A stretch of 64,000 nucleotides of DNA. Origin: Streptomyces neyagawaensis. Its GTDB lineage: Bacteria > Actinomycetota > Actinomycetes > Streptomycetales > Streptomycetaceae. A model generated the notes under the pieces. That model saw only the letters and a program-made list of their open reading frames with translations, was not told the origin of the DNA and made no database searches. The stretch lies in contig NZ_JAMGBG010000092.1 of NCBI RefSeq assembly GCF_023516595.1, forward strand, positions 1 through 64,000, in the 5' to 3' direction. Shown here piece by piece: positions 92 to 53,481 of this stretch (its first letter is position 1; the number at the start of each line of letters is the position of its first letter). The translations under genes and the position numbers were made by a program.

Positions 92-1999
92 CTAGAGCTG
101 GCCAGCCTGCCGCTGGGTCAGGCCGTACTTGCCGGCGATGCCGTTCCACAGCTGCGCGGCCTTCGTCTTCTCGGCGCTCGCCGTGCTGCTGGCCTGGTTG
201 CCCGCCTGGGTCTCGCCGGTGGAGCGGGCCTGGCCCCGCTTGCAGAGCTTCCTCTTGCCGGCGACCTGGTCGGCCCACGCGGCGTAGTGGTTGTCGGCGG
301 ACGCGGAGGCCTGCCACGCCTTGGTGAGCGAGGTGGTCAGGGCGGCGTTGTCGGGCAGCTTGTCGACGGACAGCTCGCCGAGCTTGGTGACGAGGTCGTT
401 GCGTTGCTTGGCCGCGTTGCGCAGATCGGTGGCGGCCTGGCCGAGGTTGGTGCAGGACCGGATGTTCGCGACCGCCTTGATCACGCTGTTGCGGCTGTTG
501 CCGCTGTCCGCGAGCAGCTTGTCCAGCGCGACCGCCTGCTCCTTCGCCGGGTCGGCCGCCTCTGCCGACGACTCCTCGGCCGACGGCTCGGACGCCGTCA
601 CGGCCTTGTCGTCGCCCTGCCCCTGGTCGTCCTTGCCGCCGCTCGCCATCAGGGCGCCCGCCCCGATGCCGAGGACGGCGATCCCGATACCCACGGCGGC
701 GATCAGCGGCACCTTGGAGCGCGTACGTCCGCCCCCCGAACCCCCGCCGTCACGTCTCGCGGTGGCCCGCCCGGGATGACCTCCGTGGCCACCCGGACCA
801 CCGGGGCCGCCGTGACCACGGGGACCACCGGGCCCCTGCGGCGGCTGGGCGCCGTACGGCTGCTCGATCCTCGGCATCTGCTGCGTGGCCCCGGCAGGCC
901 CGGCGCCCGCGGGCTCGCTGCGGAAGAGGCTGTCGAACACGTCCGGCTGCTGCTGCGCACCGTACGCCTGGGGACGCTCCGGGGCGGGTGCCTGCGGCTG
1001 GGCGGGCACCGGCGGGATGAACTGGGTGGGCTCGGCGTCCGGGTTCGCGGTGGGCGGCAGGGGCCCGGCACCGTGGTCCGGGACCCGCCCGAGGTACGCC
1101 GTCGCGTCGGCCGACGCCTCCGGCGGCAGCGCGCCCGGCCCCACCGGCGGCAGGAACTGGGTGGCGGCCTCCGGCGCCGCGGGCACCGGGGGTATGTACT
1201 GCGTCGCCGCCTCGTCCCCGGGCAGCGGACCGGCGGACGGCACCGGCGGAAGGTACTGGGTGGCCCCCTCGTCCACCGGCGGGGCCGGCGGCATGGGCGC
1301 CCCGCCCGACGCGAGCGACACCTCTCCCGCGACCGGCGGCAGAGGCATCCCGGAACCACCCCCGGCATACCCGTCGCCCGCGTAGGGCCCCTGCGCCGCC
1401 CCTGGCGCGCCGTACACGCCCTGGGGCCCGCCCTGCGCCCCGTACGCGGCCTGCGCAGGCCCATCGGCCCCGTACCCGGCCTGGGAGGCTCCCTGCGCTC
1501 CGTACCCGGCCCGGGCCCCGTCGCTTCCGTACGCGCCCTGCGCCGACCCCTCGGTTCCGTACCCGGCCTGAGACCCCTCGGCCCCGTACCCGGTCTGCGA
1601 CGACCCGCCCGTCCCGTACCCGGGCTGAGACCCGTCGGCCCTGTATCCGCCCCCGGACTCCTCGGACCCGTACCCGCCCGCGGCCCCCTCCGGCCCATAC
1701 GCTCCCCGGGGCCCCTCGGACCCGTACGCGGCCTGCGACGGCCCCTCGGGGGGCAGCGGCAGGCCGCCGGACCGGGCGCTCTGGTCGCCCCACTCGGGGG
1801 CGCCGCCCCAGGAACCGGCGGGCGGCTGGTTCCGCGCGTCGTGACCGCCCTGGTTCCACGTCGGGGCCGACGCGCCGGGAGGCAGGGGAGCCGGGGGCAA
1901 CTCGCTCGGGTGCAGCGGCGCCCCACCGTCGGAGGGCAGCACGATGCCTTCGCGCGCGGGCCGCGCCGAGGGCTCCTCGCCCTGTCCACTCTGCGTCAC
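92..1999 (-). CDS. Repeat-rich single-pass membrane protein, function unknown
   Basis: A 635-residue protein with one clear hydrophobic helix at about residues 428-452 and no signal peptide. The long N-terminal half is therefore probably cytoplasmic and the C-terminal about 180 residues outside. The N-terminal half is rich in Pro and Gly and holds a tract of roughly a dozen GYG- or AYG-centred repeats (about residues 90-215), then four copies of a TQ-aromatic-hydrophobic-PPV motif (for example AATQYIPPV). The C-terminal part is charged and helical, with one Cys pair that could form a disulfide. Proteins of this build are common in Streptomyces and some partner Ser/Thr-kinase/FHA systems; I infer the TQ motifs could be phosphothreonine sites but nothing here proves it. 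The ATG at 1999 is the first in frame. It probably forms its own unit, closed by the hairpin at 36-69. Confidence 0.8.
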   Translation of the reverse strand: MTQSGQGEEPSARPAREGIVLPSDGGAPLHPSELPPAPLPPGASAPTWNQGGHDARNQPPAGSWGGAPEWGDQSARSGGLPLPPEGPSQAAYGSEGPRGAYGPEGAAGGYGSEESGGGYRADGSQPGYGTGGSSQTGYGAEGSQAGYGTEGSAQGAYGSDGARAGYGAQGASQAGYGADGPAQAAYGAQGGPQGVYGAPGAAQGPYAGDGYAGGGSGMPLPPVAGEVSLASGGAPMPPAPPVDEGATQYLPPVPSAGPLPGDEAATQYIPPVPAAPEAATQFLPPVGPGALPPEASADATAYLGRVPDHGAGPLPPTANPDAEPTQFIPPVPAQPQAPAPERPQAYGAQQQPDVFDSLFRSEPAGAGPAGATQQMPRIEQPYGAQPPQGPGGPRGHGGPGGPGGHGGHPGRATARRDGGGSGGGRTRSKVPLIAAVGIGIAVLGIGAGALMASGGKDDQGQGDDKAVTASEPSAEESSAEAADPAKEQAVALDKLLADSGNSRNSVIKAVANIRSCTNLGQAATDLRNAAKQRNDLVTKLGELSVDKLPDNAALTTSLTKAWQASASADNHYAAWADQVAGKRKLCKRGQARSTGETQAGNQASSTASAEKTKAAQLWNGIAGKYGLTQRQAGQL

Positions 2000-2110
2000 C
2001 GGGACTCCTACGAACGGGGGACTTGCGGAATCGTCGCCTCACGCTACCGGTTCCCGGCGACCACCTCAGCACCACCCGCACCCCACCGAGCGCCCCGGCC
2101 CAGCCCCAGG

Positions 2111-2181
2111 AGGACCCCGGCCCGCCGAACCCCGGCCGCGTGACGACCGAGCCGCCCCACCGGCGGCACGACCGGGGTCCT
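2111..2181. terminator. Large inverted repeat downstream of the regulator gene
   Basis: Arms AGGACCCCGG (2111-2120) and CCGGGGTCCT (2172-2181) match perfectly, and the 51-bp interior holds further GC-rich self-complementary stretches. It sits just past the stop of the leftward gene ending at 2192 and before the start of the next leftward gene at 1999, so it is a plausible transcription terminator between the two. Confidence 0.5.
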
Positions 2182-2191
2182 TCCGGCGGAG

Positions 2192-3574
2192 TTACGCCGC
2201 CTGGAGCTCCATCCGCGCCCCGAACTCCCTGACCACCGCCTCCTCCCGGAACGGCTCCAGCCTCTGCTGGAGGTCCTCCAGATACTCGGCCCCCCGGTTC
2301 GACCGCAGCGACCCGAGCAGCTCCACGGCCTTCAGGCCCGTGTGGCACGCCTGCTCGACCTCGCGCTGCTGCACCTGCGCCGTGGCGAGCAGCACATAGC
2401 CGATCGCCCGCCGCCGGGCCCGCGACTCGGGATGCTTGGCCAGCGACTCCTCGGCCTGCCGCGCCGCCGCCTCCGCCTGCCCGAGGTCCCGGTGGCAGTG
2501 CGCCAACTCATCGGCGAGGTACGCCTCGTCGAAGTGCCTGATCCACGTCGGGTCGTCCCCGGACGACGAATCCGCCGCCTCCAGCGCCTCGACGGCCCGC
2601 CCGGCCGCCGCCTGCGCGGCGCGCGCGTCGCCCATCAGTGCGTGCCCGCGCGCCTCCGCCGCATGGAACATGCACTCCGCGCGCGGTGTGGCGCGCCCAC
2701 GCGCCCCTTCCTGCGCCGCCCGCGCCAGTTGCGCGATCTCACGCGGGTTCCCGAGCTGCGCGGCGAGGTGACTCATGGACGCGGCGAGCACATAGCCGCC
2801 GTACGCCCGGTCGCCCGCGGCCTGGGCGAGCCGCAGCGCCTGGATGTAGTAGCGCTGGGCGAGCCCGGGCTGCCCGGTGTCCACGGCCATGTACCCGGCG
2901 AGTTCGGTCAGCCGGGAGACCGCCGCGAACAACTCACGGCCCACCGCCTCCCGGTACGAGCCGGCCAGCAGCCCCGAGACGACGCTGTTCAAGTAGTGCA
3001 CGACGACGGGCCGGACATGCCCGCTGCCGTATTGGTGGTCGAGGTCGACGAGCGCCTGGGTCATCGCGGTCACGGCCGCCACGTCGGCCAGACCGACCCT
3101 GGGCCCCGCCGAGCGGGCCACCTGGGAGTCCGGCGCCGAAATCAGCCAGTCACGGCTGGGCTCGACGAGCGCGGAGGCGGCGACGGACGACCCCGACAGG
3201 AAGTCCCGCCGGCCCACGTCGCTGCGCCACAGCTCGCAGACCTGCTCGATGGCCCCGAGGACCGTCGGCGAGAACTGGAGCCCGACGCCGGACGCGAGGT
3301 TCTTGCCGTTGGCCATGCCGATCTCGTCGATCGTGACCGTACGGCCCAGCTTGCGCCCCAGCGCCTCGGCGATGATCGCGGGAGCCCGGCCCCGCGGCTG
3401 CTGTCCGCGCAGCCAGCGCGCGACGGACGTCTTGTCGTAGCGGAGGTCGAGTCCGTGCTCCGCGCCGCACATGTTGACCCGCCGGGCCAACCCGGCGTTG
3501 GAACAGCCCGCTTCCTGGATGAGCGCCTGCAGCCGTTCGTTCGGCTGCCTTGCGACGAGCGGCCTTGCGGCCAT
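2192..3574 (-). CDS. HTH/TPR-type transcriptional regulator (NsdA-like family)
   Basis: A 460-residue protein. Residues about 10-65 form an atypical helix-turn-helix region (NERLQALIQEAGCSNAGLAR, then a conserved RWLRGQQPRG). It is followed by a DFLSG segment near residue 140 and a long all-helical TPR-like region rich in alanine. This architecture is that of the Streptomyces NsdA-type proteins that affect sporulation and antibiotic production; that role is family knowledge, not shown here. The reading frame is open upstream to 3919, but the ATG at 3574 is preferred: it has a GGGGG Shine-Dalgarno 4 nt upstream and the family's MAARPLVARQ start. It is divergent from the primase/polymerase gene at 3946 across a 371-bp gap that must hold its promoter. 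Confidence 0.8.
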   Translation of the reverse strand: MAARPLVARQPNERLQALIQEAGCSNAGLARRVNMCGAEHGLDLRYDKTSVARWLRGQQPRGRAPAIIAEALGRKLGRTVTIDEIGMANGKNLASGVGLQFSPTVLGAIEQVCELWRSDVGRRDFLSGSSVAASALVEPSRDWLISAPDSQVARSAGPRVGLADVAAVTAMTQALVDLDHQYGSGHVRPVVVHYLNSVVSGLLAGSYREAVGRELFAAVSRLTELAGYMAVDTGQPGLAQRYYIQALRLAQAAGDRAYGGYVLAASMSHLAAQLGNPREIAQLARAAQEGARGRATPRAECMFHAAEARGHALMGDARAAQAAAGRAVEALEAADSSSGDDPTWIRHFDEAYLADELAHCHRDLGQAEAAARQAEESLAKHPESRARRRAIGYVLLATAQVQQREVEQACHTGLKAVELLGSLRSNRGAEYLEDLQQRLEPFREEAVVREFGARMELQAA

Positions 3575-3945
3575 GGCGTACCCCCTGTGGCTGTGGTGCC
3601 TGCCCACGCTTCGAGTTGACGTGTCCTCAGCGGCCGATCCCCTTCGGGCACCCGGACATACGACACGGTGCGCGCCGAACACGCGTACCGAAAGCGCATA
3701 CCCAGCTGCCGAACGGATCCGGCCTCGAAGATCAATGCCCCGCCGACATACCGAAGATGCGAGACATTCCACGATTGCCGGGGTAAACACGGATGCTGTA
3801 CCCCACACGTGGCTACCCGGCTCACTCGGTGATCCCGCCCGCGCGCCCCCGGACATGCACCCATGCGCCCCGCCCCGATCGACGATGCTCTCCCCCGCGC
3901 ATGTGACATCCGTAACCACTGATGAGCGCTAGAGTTGTGTTCATC
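3575..3945. other. Divergent non-coding gap between regulator and Prim-Pol gene
   Basis: A 371-bp stretch with lower GC than the flanking genes. It must contain the promoters of both divergent genes. Near its right end a TAGAGT hexamer (3930-3935) can act as a -10 box for the rightward gene. No convincing small ORF or hairpin was found in the rest. Confidence 0.5.
3930..3935 (+). promoter_or_regulatory. -10 box for a leaderless primase/polymerase-domain message
   Basis: TAGAGT ends 10 nt before the GTG at 3946. No Shine-Dalgarno precedes that GTG, so transcription probably starts at or next to the start codon. No good -35 hexamer is visible at the usual distance. Confidence 0.4.
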
Positions 3946-43696: not shown

Positions 43697-46318
43697 ATGA
43701 CCGCGCCCAGCCCCCCACGCCCTCCGGGCGACCGCCCAGCGCTCCGCTCAGTCCTGCCCCTGCCCCTGGTCACCGCCGTGTTCACCGCCGCCGCGGCCGG
43801 CGGTTCGGTCGCGCTGGCGCCCGCGTCCTTACAGGTCCCGGTGGCGGGTGGCGCGGGCGCCGCCGCCCTGCTGCTGACGCTCGCCGTCGCGGTCGCCGTC
43901 CACGCCCGGCAGTCGGCGCGGTCGCTGCGGCACCGACTCGACGCCGTGTCCCGTGACACCGGGATGCTCCTCCAGGAACGGGCCCGGATGACGGCCGAGT
44001 TCGGGCAGGAACGGGCGCGGCTCACCGAGGAGTTCCTCCAGGACCGCGCCCGGATCGCCGCCGACTACGCCCGCGAACGGACCCGGCTCACCGCCGAACT
44101 CGACCACGAGCGCGGCCGGCTCGCTGACGAGCGCGCCCAACTGGAGACCAGGGCCGAGGAGGAGAGGTCCCGTCTCCTCGACCGCGCCCGGCAGGCCGAG
44201 ACCGAGCGGACGGCCGCCCTCGCCGTCACCGCCAACGTGGCCGGCCGGATGCAGGCCCTCGCCACCGGCACCCTCGCCGACCTGCGCGCCATGGAGGAGC
44301 GCCACGCCGACGAGGACGTCCTCGCCGACCTGCTCCACCTCGACCACCGCACCGCCCAGGCGGGCCGTCTCGCCGACTCCGTCGCCGTCCTCGCGGGTGC
44401 CCGCTCCGGGCGCCGCTGGGCCAAGCCCATCCCGATGGAGTCGATCCTGCGGGGCGCGATGGGCCGCATCGGCGCCTACCGCCGGGTGCGGCTGCACTCC
44501 TCCAGCGAGTCCGCCGTCGCCGGGCACGCCGCCGAGGGCGTGATGCACGCGCTCGCCGAACTCCTCGACAACGCGGCGAACTTCTCGCCGCCGACCGCCG
44601 AGGTCCACGTCTACGTCGAGGAGGTCCCGGCCGGCGTCATCATCTCCGTCGAGGACGCGGGCCTCGTCATGAGCGACGTCCAGCTGCGCCGCGCCGAACG
44701 CGCCGTCTCCGGCGAGGACTCCGACCTCACCGGCCTCACCGGCACCCGCCTCGGTCTCGCCGTCGTCGGCCGCCTCGCCCGCAAGCACGGCCTCAAGGTC
44801 TCCTTCCGCCCCTCCGCCCGCGGCGGCACGGGCGTCCTGATGCTCGTCCCGCAGGACGTGCTGGCCGGTACGGTGCCGTCGGCGGGGATGCCCTCGGAGG
44901 CCCCGGCCCCCACGGGTGAGCGGACACCCGCCTACGCCGAGCGGTCGACGCCGTTCACCCCCGTGCCCGCACCGCACGACCTGGACGACGAACCGACGCC
45001 GACCCACGAGTCCCCGTACGGCGCCTCCGCCGGCCCCGAGGAGCCCCCGACGGGCCCCGGTGGCCTCCCCCGGCGCCGCCGCGGCCGGTCCCTCGCCGAG
45101 GCCGAGGCCCGCACACGCGCCCAGGCCGCCGACGGCCCACCGGCCCGCGACTCCCGGCCCGCCGAGGACGCCAGCACCGGCGCGGTCCGCTTCAGCAGCT
45201 TCCGCCGCGCCGTCCGCGGCACGAGCGGCCTCGACCAGGCCTTCGTCCAGGGCACGTCCACGGACGACGAACCGTCCACGGGTCTCCACCGGCCCGCGGA
45301 GGGGCCGGAGCACGGGGAGAACACGGGGCGGCCGGACAGCGCGGAGTCGCCGGGAACGCCCGGTGCGCCGATCACGACGGGCACGCCGCTCACGCAACCG
45401 GCAACGGGGTACCTTCCGAACCCCGGAGGGGAGAGCCTCCCGGAACCCGTACGGGACGGTCTGCCGGGCCTCGTGGGGGAGACCCGGTCGGAGTACGTAC
45501 GGGAACTCCTGCCGGAACCCTTGCGGGAGCCGGTGCGCGAGCCCCTGGCGGAGTCGGTGCCCGACCTCGCCACGGACGCCCCGATCCCGCCGCCCGGCGC
45601 GGCCGTACCGCCGCTCGCGCTGGAGCCCGCACGGGAGCCCGAGTGGGGTGTCGCCCGGGGGGCGACCTGGGAGACGTCCCCGGCGCCGGAGCCCGAGTGG
45701 GAGCCGACCGCTCCCGTACCGGACCCCGGGTGGGAGCCGGAACCCGTGCGCGGCGCGCGGTGGGAGTTCGAACCGGTACGGGACGAGCCGTGGCAACCGG
45801 TGGGCGACACACCGTGGCAGCCGGAACTCGCCCGCATCCCCCTCCGGGAATCCGAGCCGGCCCGGGAGACCCCGTGGCAGGCCGAGCCCACCCGAACCCC
45901 GACGCACGAGGCCGAACCGGTCCGGGAGACCCCCTGGCAGGCCGAGCCCGCAGGCACCGCGCCGCACGAGCCCGAACCGGTCCGGGAGACGGCATGGCAG
46001 GCCGAGCCCACCCGAACCCCGACGCACGAGCCCGAGCCGGTCCAGGAGACCCCGTGGCAGGCCGAGGCCGTGCCGGAATCCGAGGCGGTGCGTGACATCC
46101 AGTGGCAGTTGGACGCGTTGCGGGAGCTGGCCCGGGATCCCCTGCGGGACGGCCGGCCCGCGCCGGCCGACGACAACACGCCCTCCGCCCACGCGCCGTC
46201 GTCCCACGCCCCCACGCCCCCGCACCCGGCCCCCGGCAGCGCCGACGCCGACCCCGCACCCGCCCCTCATCCGGACCCCCATCCACATCCCGACCTGGAA
46301 GGCGACCCCACCCCATGA
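43697..46318 (+). CDS. cvnA: Conservon sensor-kinase-like protein CvnA
   Basis: An 873-residue membrane protein. Two N-terminal helices (about residues 23-75) are followed by a long coiled coil (residues 85-190, many Arg/Glu heptads) and a histidine-kinase-like part. The H-box region is LLHLDHRTAQAGRLADSV (about 213-230), the N-box ELLDNAANFSPP, the G1 region VEDAGLVM and G2 RLGLAVVGRLARKHG. The His and ATPase motifs are those of conservon CvnA proteins, membrane sensors of the GPCR-like Cvn switch. The C-terminal 400 residues are disordered, with three-plus 20-residue repeats (core RETPWQAEPTRTPTHE). Leu45 is a TTA codon. It overlaps cvnB by 4 bp. Confidence 0.9.
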   Translation: MTAPSPPRPPGDRPALRSVLPLPLVTAVFTAAAAGGSVALAPASLQVPVAGGAGAAALLLTLAVAVAVHARQSARSLRHRLDAVSRDTGMLLQERARMTAEFGQERARLTEEFLQDRARIAADYARERTRLTAELDHERGRLADERAQLETRAEEERSRLLDRARQAETERTAALAVTANVAGRMQALATGTLADLRAMEERHADEDVLADLLHLDHRTAQAGRLADSVAVLAGARSGRRWAKPIPMESILRGAMGRIGAYRRVRLHSSSESAVAGHAAEGVMHALAELLDNAANFSPPTAEVHVYVEEVPAGVIISVEDAGLVMSDVQLRRAERAVSGEDSDLTGLTGTRLGLAVVGRLARKHGLKVSFRPSARGGTGVLMLVPQDVLAGTVPSAGMPSEAPAPTGERTPAYAERSTPFTPVPAPHDLDDEPTPTHESPYGASAGPEEPPTGPGGLPRRRRGRSLAEAEARTRAQAADGPPARDSRPAEDASTGAVRFSSFRRAVRGTSGLDQAFVQGTSTDDEPSTGLHRPAEGPEHGENTGRPDSAESPGTPGAPITTGTPLTQPATGYLPNPGGESLPEPVRDGLPGLVGETRSEYVRELLPEPLREPVREPLAESVPDLATDAPIPPPGAAVPPLALEPAREPEWGVARGATWETSPAPEPEWEPTAPVPDPGWEPEPVRGARWEFEPVRDEPWQPVGDTPWQPELARIPLRESEPARETPWQAEPTRTPTHEAEPVRETPWQAEPAGTAPHEPEPVRETAWQAEPTRTPTHEPEPVQETPWQAEAVPESEAVRDIQWQLDALRELARDPLRDGRPAPADDNTPSAHAPSSHAPTPPHPAPGSADADPAPAPHPDPHPHPDLEGDPTP

Positions 46319-46920
46319 CCGGCACCGGCACCACCGCCGACGACAGGCTCACCTGGCTCATGGAGGGTTTGCTGGAACGCACTCCGGGCGCCCGGCACGC
46401 TCTCGTGCTCTCGCGGGACGGGCTGAAGCTGTGCCGTACGCCGGAGCTGTCCGTGGACCAGGCGGACCAGCTCGCCGCGATCGCCGCCGGCATGCAGTCG
46501 CTGTCCCACGGCGCCTCCGTGGAGTTCGGCGACGGCAGCGGCGGCGTGCGGTCGGCGATGGCGGAGTTCCACGGCGGGGTCCTGTTCATCGTGGAGGCGG
46601 GCGAGGGCGCGCATCTGGCCGTCGTCACGGACGAGGACGCCGACGCGGGTCTCGTCGGACACACCATGAGCGAACTGGTGGAGCAGCTGGGCGAACACCT
46701 CAGCGCCCGCCCGCGCCACCGGCCGGAGGCACCCGCGGACCCGACCGCACACACACAGCCGACCACGCCCACCCTGTCGACCACGCCGACCCCGGCCTCG
46801 ACCACCTCCCCCACCACCTCCACCTCCACCACCACCGTTTCCCCCGCACCCGCTTCCCCCGCGACGACGGCGTCCACCTCGGCTACTTCGGCTACGGCTC
46901 TGGCGCCCCGTACGTCATGA
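46315..46920 (+). CDS. cvnB: Roadblock/LC7 domain protein CvnB
   Basis: A 201-residue protein. Residues about 7-120 are the Roadblock/LC7 fold (DDRLTWLMEGLLERTPGARH, ALVLSRDGLKL, LVGHTMSELVEQLGEHL), which in conservons acts with CvnD as a GTPase-regulating subunit. The last about 65 residues form a Thr/Pro/Ser-rich extension (for example TTPTPASTTSPTTSTSTTTV) much longer than usual for CvnB. It overlaps cvnA (ATGA at 46315-46318) and cvnC (46917-46920) by 4 bp each, so all three are translationally coupled. Confidence 0.9.
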   Translation: MTGTGTTADDRLTWLMEGLLERTPGARHALVLSRDGLKLCRTPELSVDQADQLAAIAAGMQSLSHGASVEFGDGSGGVRSAMAEFHGGVLFIVEAGEGAHLAVVTDEDADAGLVGHTMSELVEQLGEHLSARPRHRPEAPADPTAHTQPTTPTLSTTPTPASTTSPTTSTSTTTVSPAPASPATTASTSATSATALAPRTS

Positions 46921-47264
46921 GCCGGCCCGGCAGGGACGACCTGCCCGACCGGCTGTACACCCTCACCGGAGGACGCAGCCGGTCCGCGCCCGGCACCCCC
47001 TTCGACCTGGTCACCCTGGTCACCGCCGAGTCGCAGCCGGTGCCGGGGATGCAGTCGGAGCACACGGCGATCCTGCGGCTGACGGAACGGCCCACGGCGG
47101 TCGTGGAGATCGCCGCCGGGCTGGGGCTGCCGGTGAGCATCACCAAGGTGCTGCTGTCCGACCTCCTCGCCGCGGGCCGGGTCAGCGCCCGGCACCCGCA
47201 CAAGGCCACGCTGATCGATCTGGACATCCTGGAGCAGGTACTAGTTGGACTTCGCAACCTCTGA
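46917..47264 (+). CDS. cvnC: DUF742 family protein CvnC
   Basis: A 115-residue DUF742 protein (PGTPFDLVTLVTAESQPVPG, then LPVSITKVLLSDLLAAGRVS and the conserved ending ILEQVLVGLRNL). In conservons it lies between CvnB and the GTPase CvnD and forms part of the membrane-associated complex. The 3' end overlaps the start of the next gene by 20 bp, the overlap normally found between cvnC and cvnD. It looks intact. Confidence 0.9.
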   Translation: MSRPGRDDLPDRLYTLTGGRSRSAPGTPFDLVTLVTAESQPVPGMQSEHTAILRLTERPTAVVEIAAGLGLPVSITKVLLSDLLAAGRVSARHPHKATLIDLDILEQVLVGLRNL

Positions 47265-48522
47265 GCACGGCGGGGACAGCCGGACGCCCGGACCCGGGCC
47301 CGGCCCCGTCCCCGTCGCCCTCACCGGCGCCCGCTTCCGCGGTGACCCCGCCGCCCTCTACCGCGAACTGCGGCGTGAGCACGGCGAGGTCGTCCCCGTG
47401 CTGCTCGACGGGGACGTGCCGGCGTGGCTGGTGCTGGGCTACCGCGAGCTGCACCAGGTGACGAGCGACCCGGAACTGTTCAGCAGGGACTCCGAGTTGT
47501 GGAACCAGTGGCCGAACATCCCCGCCGACTGGCCCCTGTTGCCGGTGATCAGCCGGGAGCAGCCGTCGATCCTCGGCTCGGTCGGCGAACGGCACCGGCG
47601 GCGGGCCGCGCTGCTCGGTGAGGCGCTGGAGGCGGTCGACGCGTTCACGCTGCGCCGCCACGCCGAGCGGTTCGCGGACGAGCTGCTCGACGCGGTATGC
47701 GGGGCGGGCACGGCCGACCTCGTCGCGCAGTACGCGGCGCTGCTGCCGGTCCGGGTGCTGGCGTACCTCTTCGGCTTCCCGGAGGAGCAGGGGCCGGATC
47801 TGGTCGTCGCGTTGACCGACATCCTCGACGGGCAGGGCCGGGCGCAGGCCGCCGAGGCGCGGCTGACGACGGCGATGACCCGGCTGGTGGCGGAGCGGCG
47901 GGAGCGTCCCGCGGACGACGTGGTGTCCCGTCTGCTGGCGAACGCCTCCGCCCAGGGCTTCTCCGTCGAGGAGGTCACACACGACGTGATGGTCATGCTG
48001 GCCGCGGGACACCAGCCGACCACCGACTGGATCGGCAACTCCCTGCGGCTGATGCTGACCGACGAGCGTTTCGCGGCCTCCCTGTTCGGCGGGCGCAGCA
48101 GTGTGGCGGAGGCCATGAACGAGGTGCTGTGGGAGGACGCCCCCATCCAGAACGCGGCGGGCCGCTGGCTCTCCCGCGACACCCGGCTCGGCGGCCGTGC
48201 CCTGCGCGCCGGGGACCTTGTCCTCCTCGGCCTCCAGGGCGCCAACTCCGACCCCCGCGTACGCACCCACGGCTCCGCGCTCACCGGCGGCAACAACGCG
48301 CACTTCTCCTTCGGGCACGGCGAGCACCGCTGCCCGTTCCCGGCGCGGGAGATCGCCGAGGTCATCGCGCGCACCGGTATCGAGGTCGTCCTGGACCGGC
48401 TGCCGGACCTCGACCTCGCCGTACCGGAGGAGACCCTCGTCCGGCGGCCCTCGCCCTGGCTGCGGGGGTTGGTGGAGCTGCCGGTGCGGTTCTCGCCGTC
48501 GCCCGCGGTCGGCGGCCGGTGA
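47245..48522 (+). CDS. cvnE: Cytochrome P450 (CYP157-like CvnE) carrying a cvnD start
   Basis: A 425-residue P450. The haem-binding loop is FSFGHGEHRCPFPA with Cys363 as ligand; the I-helix reads MLAAGHQPTTDWI. The K-helix ExxR position reads EVLW (Glu293 to Trp296), so the Arg is missing, as in the CYP157 family known from conservons. The TTG start at 47245 overlaps cvnC by 20 bp, and the first residues MDFATSEHGGDSR are those expected of CvnD GTPases (MDFASS-type), not of P450s. P450 homology begins only near PVALTGARFRGDPAALYREL. The GTPase gene itself is missing: a deletion appears to have joined the cvnD start to the P450. No separate start exists within the early P450 coding region. Confidence 0.85.
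   Translation: MDFATSEHGGDSRTPGPGPGPVPVALTGARFRGDPAALYRELRREHGEVVPVLLDGDVPAWLVLGYRELHQVTSDPELFSRDSELWNQWPNIPADWPLLPVISREQPSILGSVGERHRRRAALLGEALEAVDAFTLRRHAERFADELLDAVCGAGTADLVAQYAALLPVRVLAYLFGFPEEQGPDLVVALTDILDGQGRAQAAEARLTTAMTRLVAERRERPADDVVSRLLANASAQGFSVEEVTHDVMVMLAAGHQPTTDWIGNSLRLMLTDERFAASLFGGRSSVAEAMNEVLWEDAPIQNAAGRWLSRDTRLGGRALRAGDLVLLGLQGANSDPRVRTHGSALTGGNNAHFSFGHGEHRCPFPAREIAEVIARTGIEVVLDRLPDLDLAVPEETLVRRPSPWLRGLVELPVRFSPSPAVGGR

Positions 48523-48656: not shown

Positions 48657-53481
<4,825 letters not shown>

Follow-up and report, generated by a model that had tools for sequence, protein, structure and literature searches.

A Streptomyces neyagawaensis conservon without cvnD, in which a CYP157A-like P450 gene opens at the cvnD-type start

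Organization of the locus

The window analyzed herein is the whole stretch of 64,000 nucleotides of Streptomyces neyagawaensis DNA (contig NZ_JAMGBG010000092.1). A P450-type conservon is located at 43697–48522 of the window. It comprises cvnA, cvnB, cvnC, and a gene for a CYP157A-like cytochrome P450, all on the + strand, and has no GTPase gene. Its features are as follows.

43697–46318, + strand: cvnA, histidine-kinase-like ATPase; HATPase_c at residues 280–386; long repetitive C-terminal tail
46315–46920, + strand: cvnB, Roadblock/LC7 protein; overlaps cvnA via ATGA
46917–47264, + strand: cvnC, DUF742 protein; overlaps cvnB via ATGA; C-terminus LEQVLVGLRNL, then stop
47231–47234, + strand: GGAG inside cvnC, 10 nt before the TTG; likely Shine-Dalgarno sequence for the TTG start
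47245–47264, + strand: 20-nt overlap of the cvnC end and the inherited cvnD start, TTG GAC TTC GCA ACC TCT
47245–48522, + strand: CYP157A-like P450 gene (cvnE type), reading from the former cvnD start; P450-like part from approximately 47308
48121–48132, + strand: EVLW replacing the K-helix motif EXXR; identical in 97/97 aligned P450 rows
48331–48333, + strand: codon of the haem-ligand cysteine; kept in 97/97 aligned P450 rows

The initial annotation described cvnA, cvnB, and cvnC as intact and coupled, and the Pfam scan agreed: HATPase_c (PF02518, E 1.8e-12), Robl_LC7 (PF03259, E 1.5e-22), and DUF742 (PF05331, E 7.6e-34) were found in the three products, and ATGA overlaps occur at the first two junctions. 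Read by eye, the CvnA N-terminus contains two hydrophobic stretches separated by a short loop; a sensor domain was absent among the Pfam matches. The 3' part of cvnA carries a 60-bp tandem repeat (3.6 copies, 45852–46066) encoding a repetitive tail that contains Pro, Glu, and Trp.

The P450 open reading frame was reported to open at a cvnD-type TTG with a 20-bp cvnC overlap. This was confirmed for 47245–48522, which starts 20 nt within cvnC. TTG 47245 is the likely P450 start because no other in-frame ATG, GTG, or TTG precedes the conserved P450 core in the window sequence. The GGAG bases are identical in six aligned relatives, both cvnD-bearing and cvnD-less. The MDFASS-type N-terminus was also taken as a sign of cvnD. 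The likeness is real; however, we rejected it as independent proof because a different reading frame of the conserved CvnC tail partly dictates it. Taken alone, it is weak evidence, and the relatives settle the point. The distance from the cvnD start to the P450 core is 41 codons in the window, 94 in L138, and 257 in S. ipomoeae (L015, 7278–9194), in which the extended stretch is rich in Gly, Asp, Pro, and Thr.

The window P450 matched NCBIfam P450 models, every one under its curated cut-off, and its best solved-structure match was CYP154C1 (E 2.1e-42). At E 0.001, it had no Pfam match. All 97 aligned rows, whether cvnD-bearing or cvnD-less, have both EVLW and the haem cysteine. According to the available excerpts of PMC3599690, EVLW replaces EXXR in the CYP157A family and linkage to a conservon has been reported. 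By its EVLW motif, kept cysteine, and conservon linkage, the window P450 appears to be CYP157A-like.

The statement that no P-loop GTPase follows cvnC was upheld. None is encoded between cvnC and the P450, and the genome profile search gave no match to the small GTPase model PF03029 on the contig of the window (150 of 176 first-look candidates scored). The P-loop of the next gene is that of a NACHT NTPase. This gene (48657–52352, 1231 aa, PF05729 match) directly follows the P450 gene and gave no PADLOC match; it was matched downstream in only part of the window clade (L009–L011, L016, and L143, with a short piece in L015). The locus is a cvnD-less derivative of a conservon rather than a complete one because the CvnD Ras-like GTPase is missing while the CvnA, CvnB, and CvnC domains are all present.

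Presence and absence of cvnD in Streptomyces

Loci with an orthologous P450 were collected from Streptomyces, one genome per species (the best 80 of 453), giving 81 loci with the window. cvnC was visible in 80 of the 81; L085 is cut. Among the 80, cvnD with a P-loop lies between cvnC and the P450 gene in 63 and is absent in 17, including the window. cvnD begins at the same TTG inside cvnC in the 63 cvnD-bearing loci. Alignment with the complete conservons of relatives, which the initial annotation had proposed, thus revealed that the gene order without cvnD is not universal among them. It also supported the proposed in-frame removal of cvnD with transfer of its start to the P450, as did a cvnD segment in L022 and a partial cvnD in L125. 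An assembly or sequencing error in the window's genome would also explain the missing gene. This was refuted because 16 other loci of the set share the cvnD-less state, and the same junction is present in S. torulosus, S. ossamyceticus, and MA5143a, as well as in HM190 and S. scabiei, both of which are complete sequences.

A genus sample of 392 genomes, which overlaps in species with the 80-locus set, contained the P450 in 205 genomes and cvnC in 192 at the thresholds used. Among the matches listed, 150 P450 and 150 cvnC places (130 genomes in both) yielded 127 linked pairs, which are biased to window-like rows. The normalized gap between cvnC and the P450 gene was 571–778 nt in 113 pairs, 20–200 nt in 13, and 415 nt in one; therefore, 113/127 pairs have room for cvnD and 13 do not. 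The 415-nt gap belongs to L125, the cvnD of which is truncated by a large internal deletion. Eight of the 113 long-gap loci were read (L129–L136), and all eight carry cvnD.

Routes and number of cvnD losses

The losses took two forms among the cvnD-less loci. In the fused type (the window clade, the flaveus group, and S. bluensis), the cvnD start is in frame with the P450 through a variable linker. The window junction joins the TTG and approximately the first six cvnD codons to the P450, and S. flaveus L022 retains a cvnD N-terminal segment, TSDGRTPLG (SDGRTPLG), ahead of the P450. The P450 frame is open in 21/21 fused rows (418–639 codons), which represent 19 distinct loci because L021 equals L123 and L082 equals L119. 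No other in-frame start was present in the scanned stretch of 12 of the 21 rows, including the window, while in nine an additional in-frame ATG or GTG precedes the core (L012, L015–L019, L082, L119, and L138); in L013, the core pattern escaped detection, and the scan covered 40 codons only. In the mini-ORF type, L120, L121, L122, and L124 retain just a mini-ORF of 12–37 codons. One remnant reads LHSAISDQQEFV followed by a stop, and three others exist; that of L121 resembles a junction of the start and end of cvnD (QEFV, then stop). The mini-ORF stop overlaps the P450 GTG by -4 (GTGA) in 4/4 loci, as in the complete operons shown.

A CvnC+P450 tree of 64 rows (33 near-duplicates of 97 left out) required five changes of the cvnD state, with a bootstrap range of 5–6. 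At least four are forced by well-supported branches, and a single change sufficed in 0% of 200 bootstrap trees. An earlier quick-method tree with fewer cvnD-less lineages had required two changes only. L120 groups as the sister of the truncated L125; therefore, the first deletion step may be common to both. The cvnD-less rows nest within cvnD-bearing clades. Since the remnants give direction, the changes of state represent repeated losses. These comparisons show that Streptomyces lost cvnD some five times (strong branches force four of the losses), that an in-frame deletion removed cvnD in an ancestor of the window's clade, and that the examined loci can still be read from the end of cvnC into the P450. 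The window clade spans S. scabiei, S. ipomoeae, and S. tailanensis. Judging from the sequences, the loss is old and common to this clade, and is not private to the strain.

If the operon had originally lacked cvnD, and the gene had been inserted later in one lineage, the polarity would be reversed. When distant paralogs were used to root a P450 tree, 14 of the 17 cvnD-less rows were placed near the base. However, that outgroup sits on very long branches, cvnD follows cvnC in 12/12 other conservons of the window's genome, and cvnD remnants and a partly deleted cvnD exist, with cvnD-less rows nested in cvnD-bearing clades. The remnants contradict a late insertion, which we consider very improbable.

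CvnD of complete operons and other conservons of the genome

In complete orthologous operons, the CvnD motifs G1 (71/71), G3 (70/71), and G5 (71/71) are present. These proteins have FGAPGQ for FGTPGQ in 70/71 and NxFG for the commoner NxFD in 71/71 (e.g., L023, L070, and L129). The 12 other CvnD of the window's genome all have FGTPGQ; NxFD is present in nine and absent in three. The dN/dS of the ortholog CvnD was 0.287 versus 0.291 in another P450 conservon that keeps cvnD (9 loci). A second control conservon was far more constrained (CvnB 0.026, CvnC 0.052, and CvnD 0.066; 11 loci), so both measured P450 conservons evolve faster overall. We asked whether this operon's CvnD had already become an inactive GTPase and rejected the idea because G1, G3, and G5 are present and its dN/dS equals that of the other P450 conservon. 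We treat the departures in G3 and G4 as a plain observation.

The genome of the window encodes 13 DUF742 proteins and 12 CvnD-type GTPases, and each GTPase gene adjoins one of the other 12 cvnC genes. cvnD follows cvnC in 12/12 of these conservons, and its frame is already open in the cvnC tail in 11/12. The initial annotation suggested looking for an orphan CvnD as a replacement; no orphan or relocated cvnD was found among the 150 of 176 first-look candidates scored. The genome nevertheless has 12 CvnD and, therefore, 12 possible donors.

A cvnD without a cvnC match in S. scabiei and its relatives was considered as a relocated copy. It was rejected because it belongs to a third conservon, the counterpart of which in the window's genome (L117) keeps cvnC. 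In L114 (14867–15900), L115 (2869–3899), and L118 (13255–14288), from S. scabiei, S. stelliscabiei, and S. caniscabiei, cvnD comes directly after cvnB, and no cvnC match intervenes; a cvnC-less conservon thus co-occurs with a cvnD-less one in these three species. L141 (2256–4249) is another conservon type with cvnA, cvnB, and cvnC matches and no cvnD match within 7.5 kb.

Second P450 copies were considered as further cvnD-less conservons (13 genomes searched) and rejected: 12 copies of this P450 family (L178–L189) have no conservon gene in their 1.5-kb flanks. Among the other extra copies, L190 and L191, both third copies, have matches to cvnB, cvnC, and cvnD, while L139, at the same place as L177, is a cvnB-cvnC-P450 set. 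L139 (minus strand, approximately 1869–3896) is from S. viridiviolaceus, which also has a complete operon (L023). No cvnA or cvnD match is present in 6 kb around this second set, its old TTG is TAG, and its P450 has its own AAGGAG-GTG start.

Selection on the remaining genes

Median dN/dS values (Nei-Gojobori, pairs with a P450 dS of 0.15–1.3; pairs are not independent, and L122/L124 form one pair) in the window clade were 0.299 for CvnA, 0.139 for CvnB, 0.210 for CvnC, and 0.201 for the P450, versus 0.432, 0.119, 0.251, and 0.240, respectively, in cvnD-bearing loci. Near-invariant columns were altered in the majority of window-clade rows at 1/103 positions in CvnB and 1/76 in CvnC. These results indicate that CvnB, CvnC, and the P450 have been under purifying selection after the loss of cvnD. 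The remaining genes carry no visible decay, and the operon looks maintained.

CvnB or CvnC is somewhat relaxed in parts of the cvnD-less set. The proportion of changed near-invariant CvnB cells was 7.5% in the flaveus lineage, 9.1% in L122/L124, and 7.5% in L121, versus 0–4.3% in 13 cvnD-bearing lineages; in an untrimmed count, the cvnD-bearing pair L045/L129 reached 8.5%. In CvnC, it was 2.4–7.2% in cvnD-less lineages (4.3% in the window clade) versus 0–2.9% in cvnD-bearing lineages. The window-clade P450 was likewise more diverged (8.1% versus 0.4–7.5%), and window-clade CvnB was not relaxed relative to it. In the flaveus lineage (three species, 3 pairs), dN/dS was 0.36 for CvnB and 0.33 for CvnC.

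A decaying locus would account for some of these values. The loss of cvnD would then be a first step, after which the rest persists through selection for P450 expression or because decay is slow. The relaxation of CvnB in three other lineages, the slight relaxation of CvnC in the cvnD-less set, and the flaveus values are in line with decay, as are the extra S. viridiviolaceus copy without a cvnA or cvnD match and the 12 loci at which P450s of this family have no conservon genes within 1.5 kb. However, dN/dS was 0.14–0.30 for all four window-clade genes, the P450 frame is open in every fused row, and the clade is old enough to span three named species. We consider decay to be unlikely. The initial annotation had left the choice between a decayed and a rewired locus open. 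A maintained locus is now favored because of these dN/dS values, the kept translation into the P450, and the repeated loss, with the partial relaxation of CvnB and CvnC in the set as a qualification.

CvnB residues 60–72 were changed in 6/7 cvnD-less or truncated lineages (in some members only of the window clade), whereas cvnD-bearing rows had a single substitution type (Fisher p 0.035, for a segment picked after the data were seen). By position, this segment is the alpha2 region, which a model of the mycobacterial roadblock protein MfpD places against the GTPase (PMC13015309, available excerpts); the changes would look like the loss of a GTPase contact. CvnB D35 was kept in 23/23 cvnD-less rows (21 distinct loci). 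This residue was equated by eye with the beta1-beta2 loop Asp of MfpD, which sits at the GTPase contact in the AF3 model of MfpD-MfpB (PMC13015309).

Interpretation

In the window, a P450-type conservon (cvnA-B-C-D-E) lost cvnD by an in-frame deletion that joined the TTG and approximately six codons to the P450. The operon may still function as a signaling unit. The P450 would act on an apparently sensor-less CvnA at the input side, and CvnB and CvnC may act on a CvnD from one of the 12 other conservons, which is the least certain step. The conservon would then be maintained and could dispense with a G protein of its own owing to cross-talk, with the CvnD of another conservon serving CvnB and CvnC. 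Cross-talk between conservons has been proposed from S. coelicolor mutants (PMC8510531, available excerpts). We tentatively assign a probability of roughly 0.43 to this reading and place it narrowly ahead of signaling without a G protein and ahead of the other alternatives; the evidence for supply in trans is the retained constraint.

The signal may instead pass without any G protein: the P450 would modulate CvnA, CvnB and CvnC would pass the signal on directly, and CvnD would be dispensable. The fact that cvnD was lost repeatedly while the route into the P450 was preserved is consistent with this, as are raised CvnB substitution in three cvnD-less lineages, raised CvnC substitution in cvnD-less lineages overall, including the window clade, the changes at CvnB 60–72 in 6/7 lineages, the departures of the ortholog CvnD from the usual motifs (FGAPGQ and NxFG), and the pairing of CvnE with CvnA in the literature (PMC13343842, available excerpts). 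However, window-clade CvnB and CvnC exceed cvnD-bearing loci in dN/dS by no more than 0.02, window-clade CvnB is not relaxed against the P450, and the loop modeled at the GTPase contact is kept. Furthermore, the dN/dS of CvnD, where present, is no higher than in the other P450 conservon, and NxFD is also missing from three of the 12 other CvnD of the genome. Direct signaling is nearly as probable as supply in trans, at less than even odds. In a bolder form, the P450 repeatedly took the place of the GTPase in Streptomyces, with its ribosome start and possibly its role as the partner of CvnA, CvnB, and CvnC; we regard this form as somewhat less probable still.

Whether a foreign CvnD serves the operon, as we prefer, or none does, this operon seems either to do without its G-protein switch or to borrow one from another part of the cell because relatives lost cvnD several times separately and kept the other parts. 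A recent proposal would rename conservons for their GTPase, as actinobacterial G protein systems (PMC13343842). The GTPase, the namesake, is the part that has been lost repeatedly, while the sensor, Roadblock, DUF742, and P450 proteins stay. According to the excerpts available from the same paper, CvnE and CvnF are modulators of CvnA, CvnE presumably works on the CvnA side of the pathway, and CvnE11 is modeled in contact with the ATPase domains of CvnA11. Action of CvnE on that side would account for the retention of the P450 in loci that lost CvnD. In its survey, the paper sought cvnD at the third gene from cvnA and cvnE at the fourth; by this rule, a cvnE located three genes from cvnA would be missed. 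We found no earlier report of a cvnD-less conservon in the literature searched, which was mostly outside subscription papers and is thus not proof of absence. These loci offer a natural experiment on two questions: the sharing of G proteins or cross-talk among conservons, and the role of CvnE P450s without EXXR.

The window P450 shares with the CYP157A family, as described in PMC3599690, the replacement of EXXR by EVLW, the kept haem cysteine, and the conservon linkage; it differs in that its N-terminus derives from the cvnD start. The mycobacterial mfp conservon (MfpB GTPase, MfpD roadblock) resembles the locus in having a roadblock protein with a beta1-beta2 loop Asp modeled at the GTPase contact. 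In contrast, its GTPase is present, and the accessible part of PMC13015309 mentions no P450. The closest counterparts are P450-type conservons such as cvn9-cvn12 of S. coelicolor, which are organized as cvnABCD-cvnE (PMC8510531 and PMC13343842, available excerpts). The window shares their gene order, overlapping starts, terminal P450 gene, and, by eye, the short loop between the hydrophobic stretches of CvnA. However, it lacks cvnD, one of the four core genes, and its P450 uses the cvnD start.
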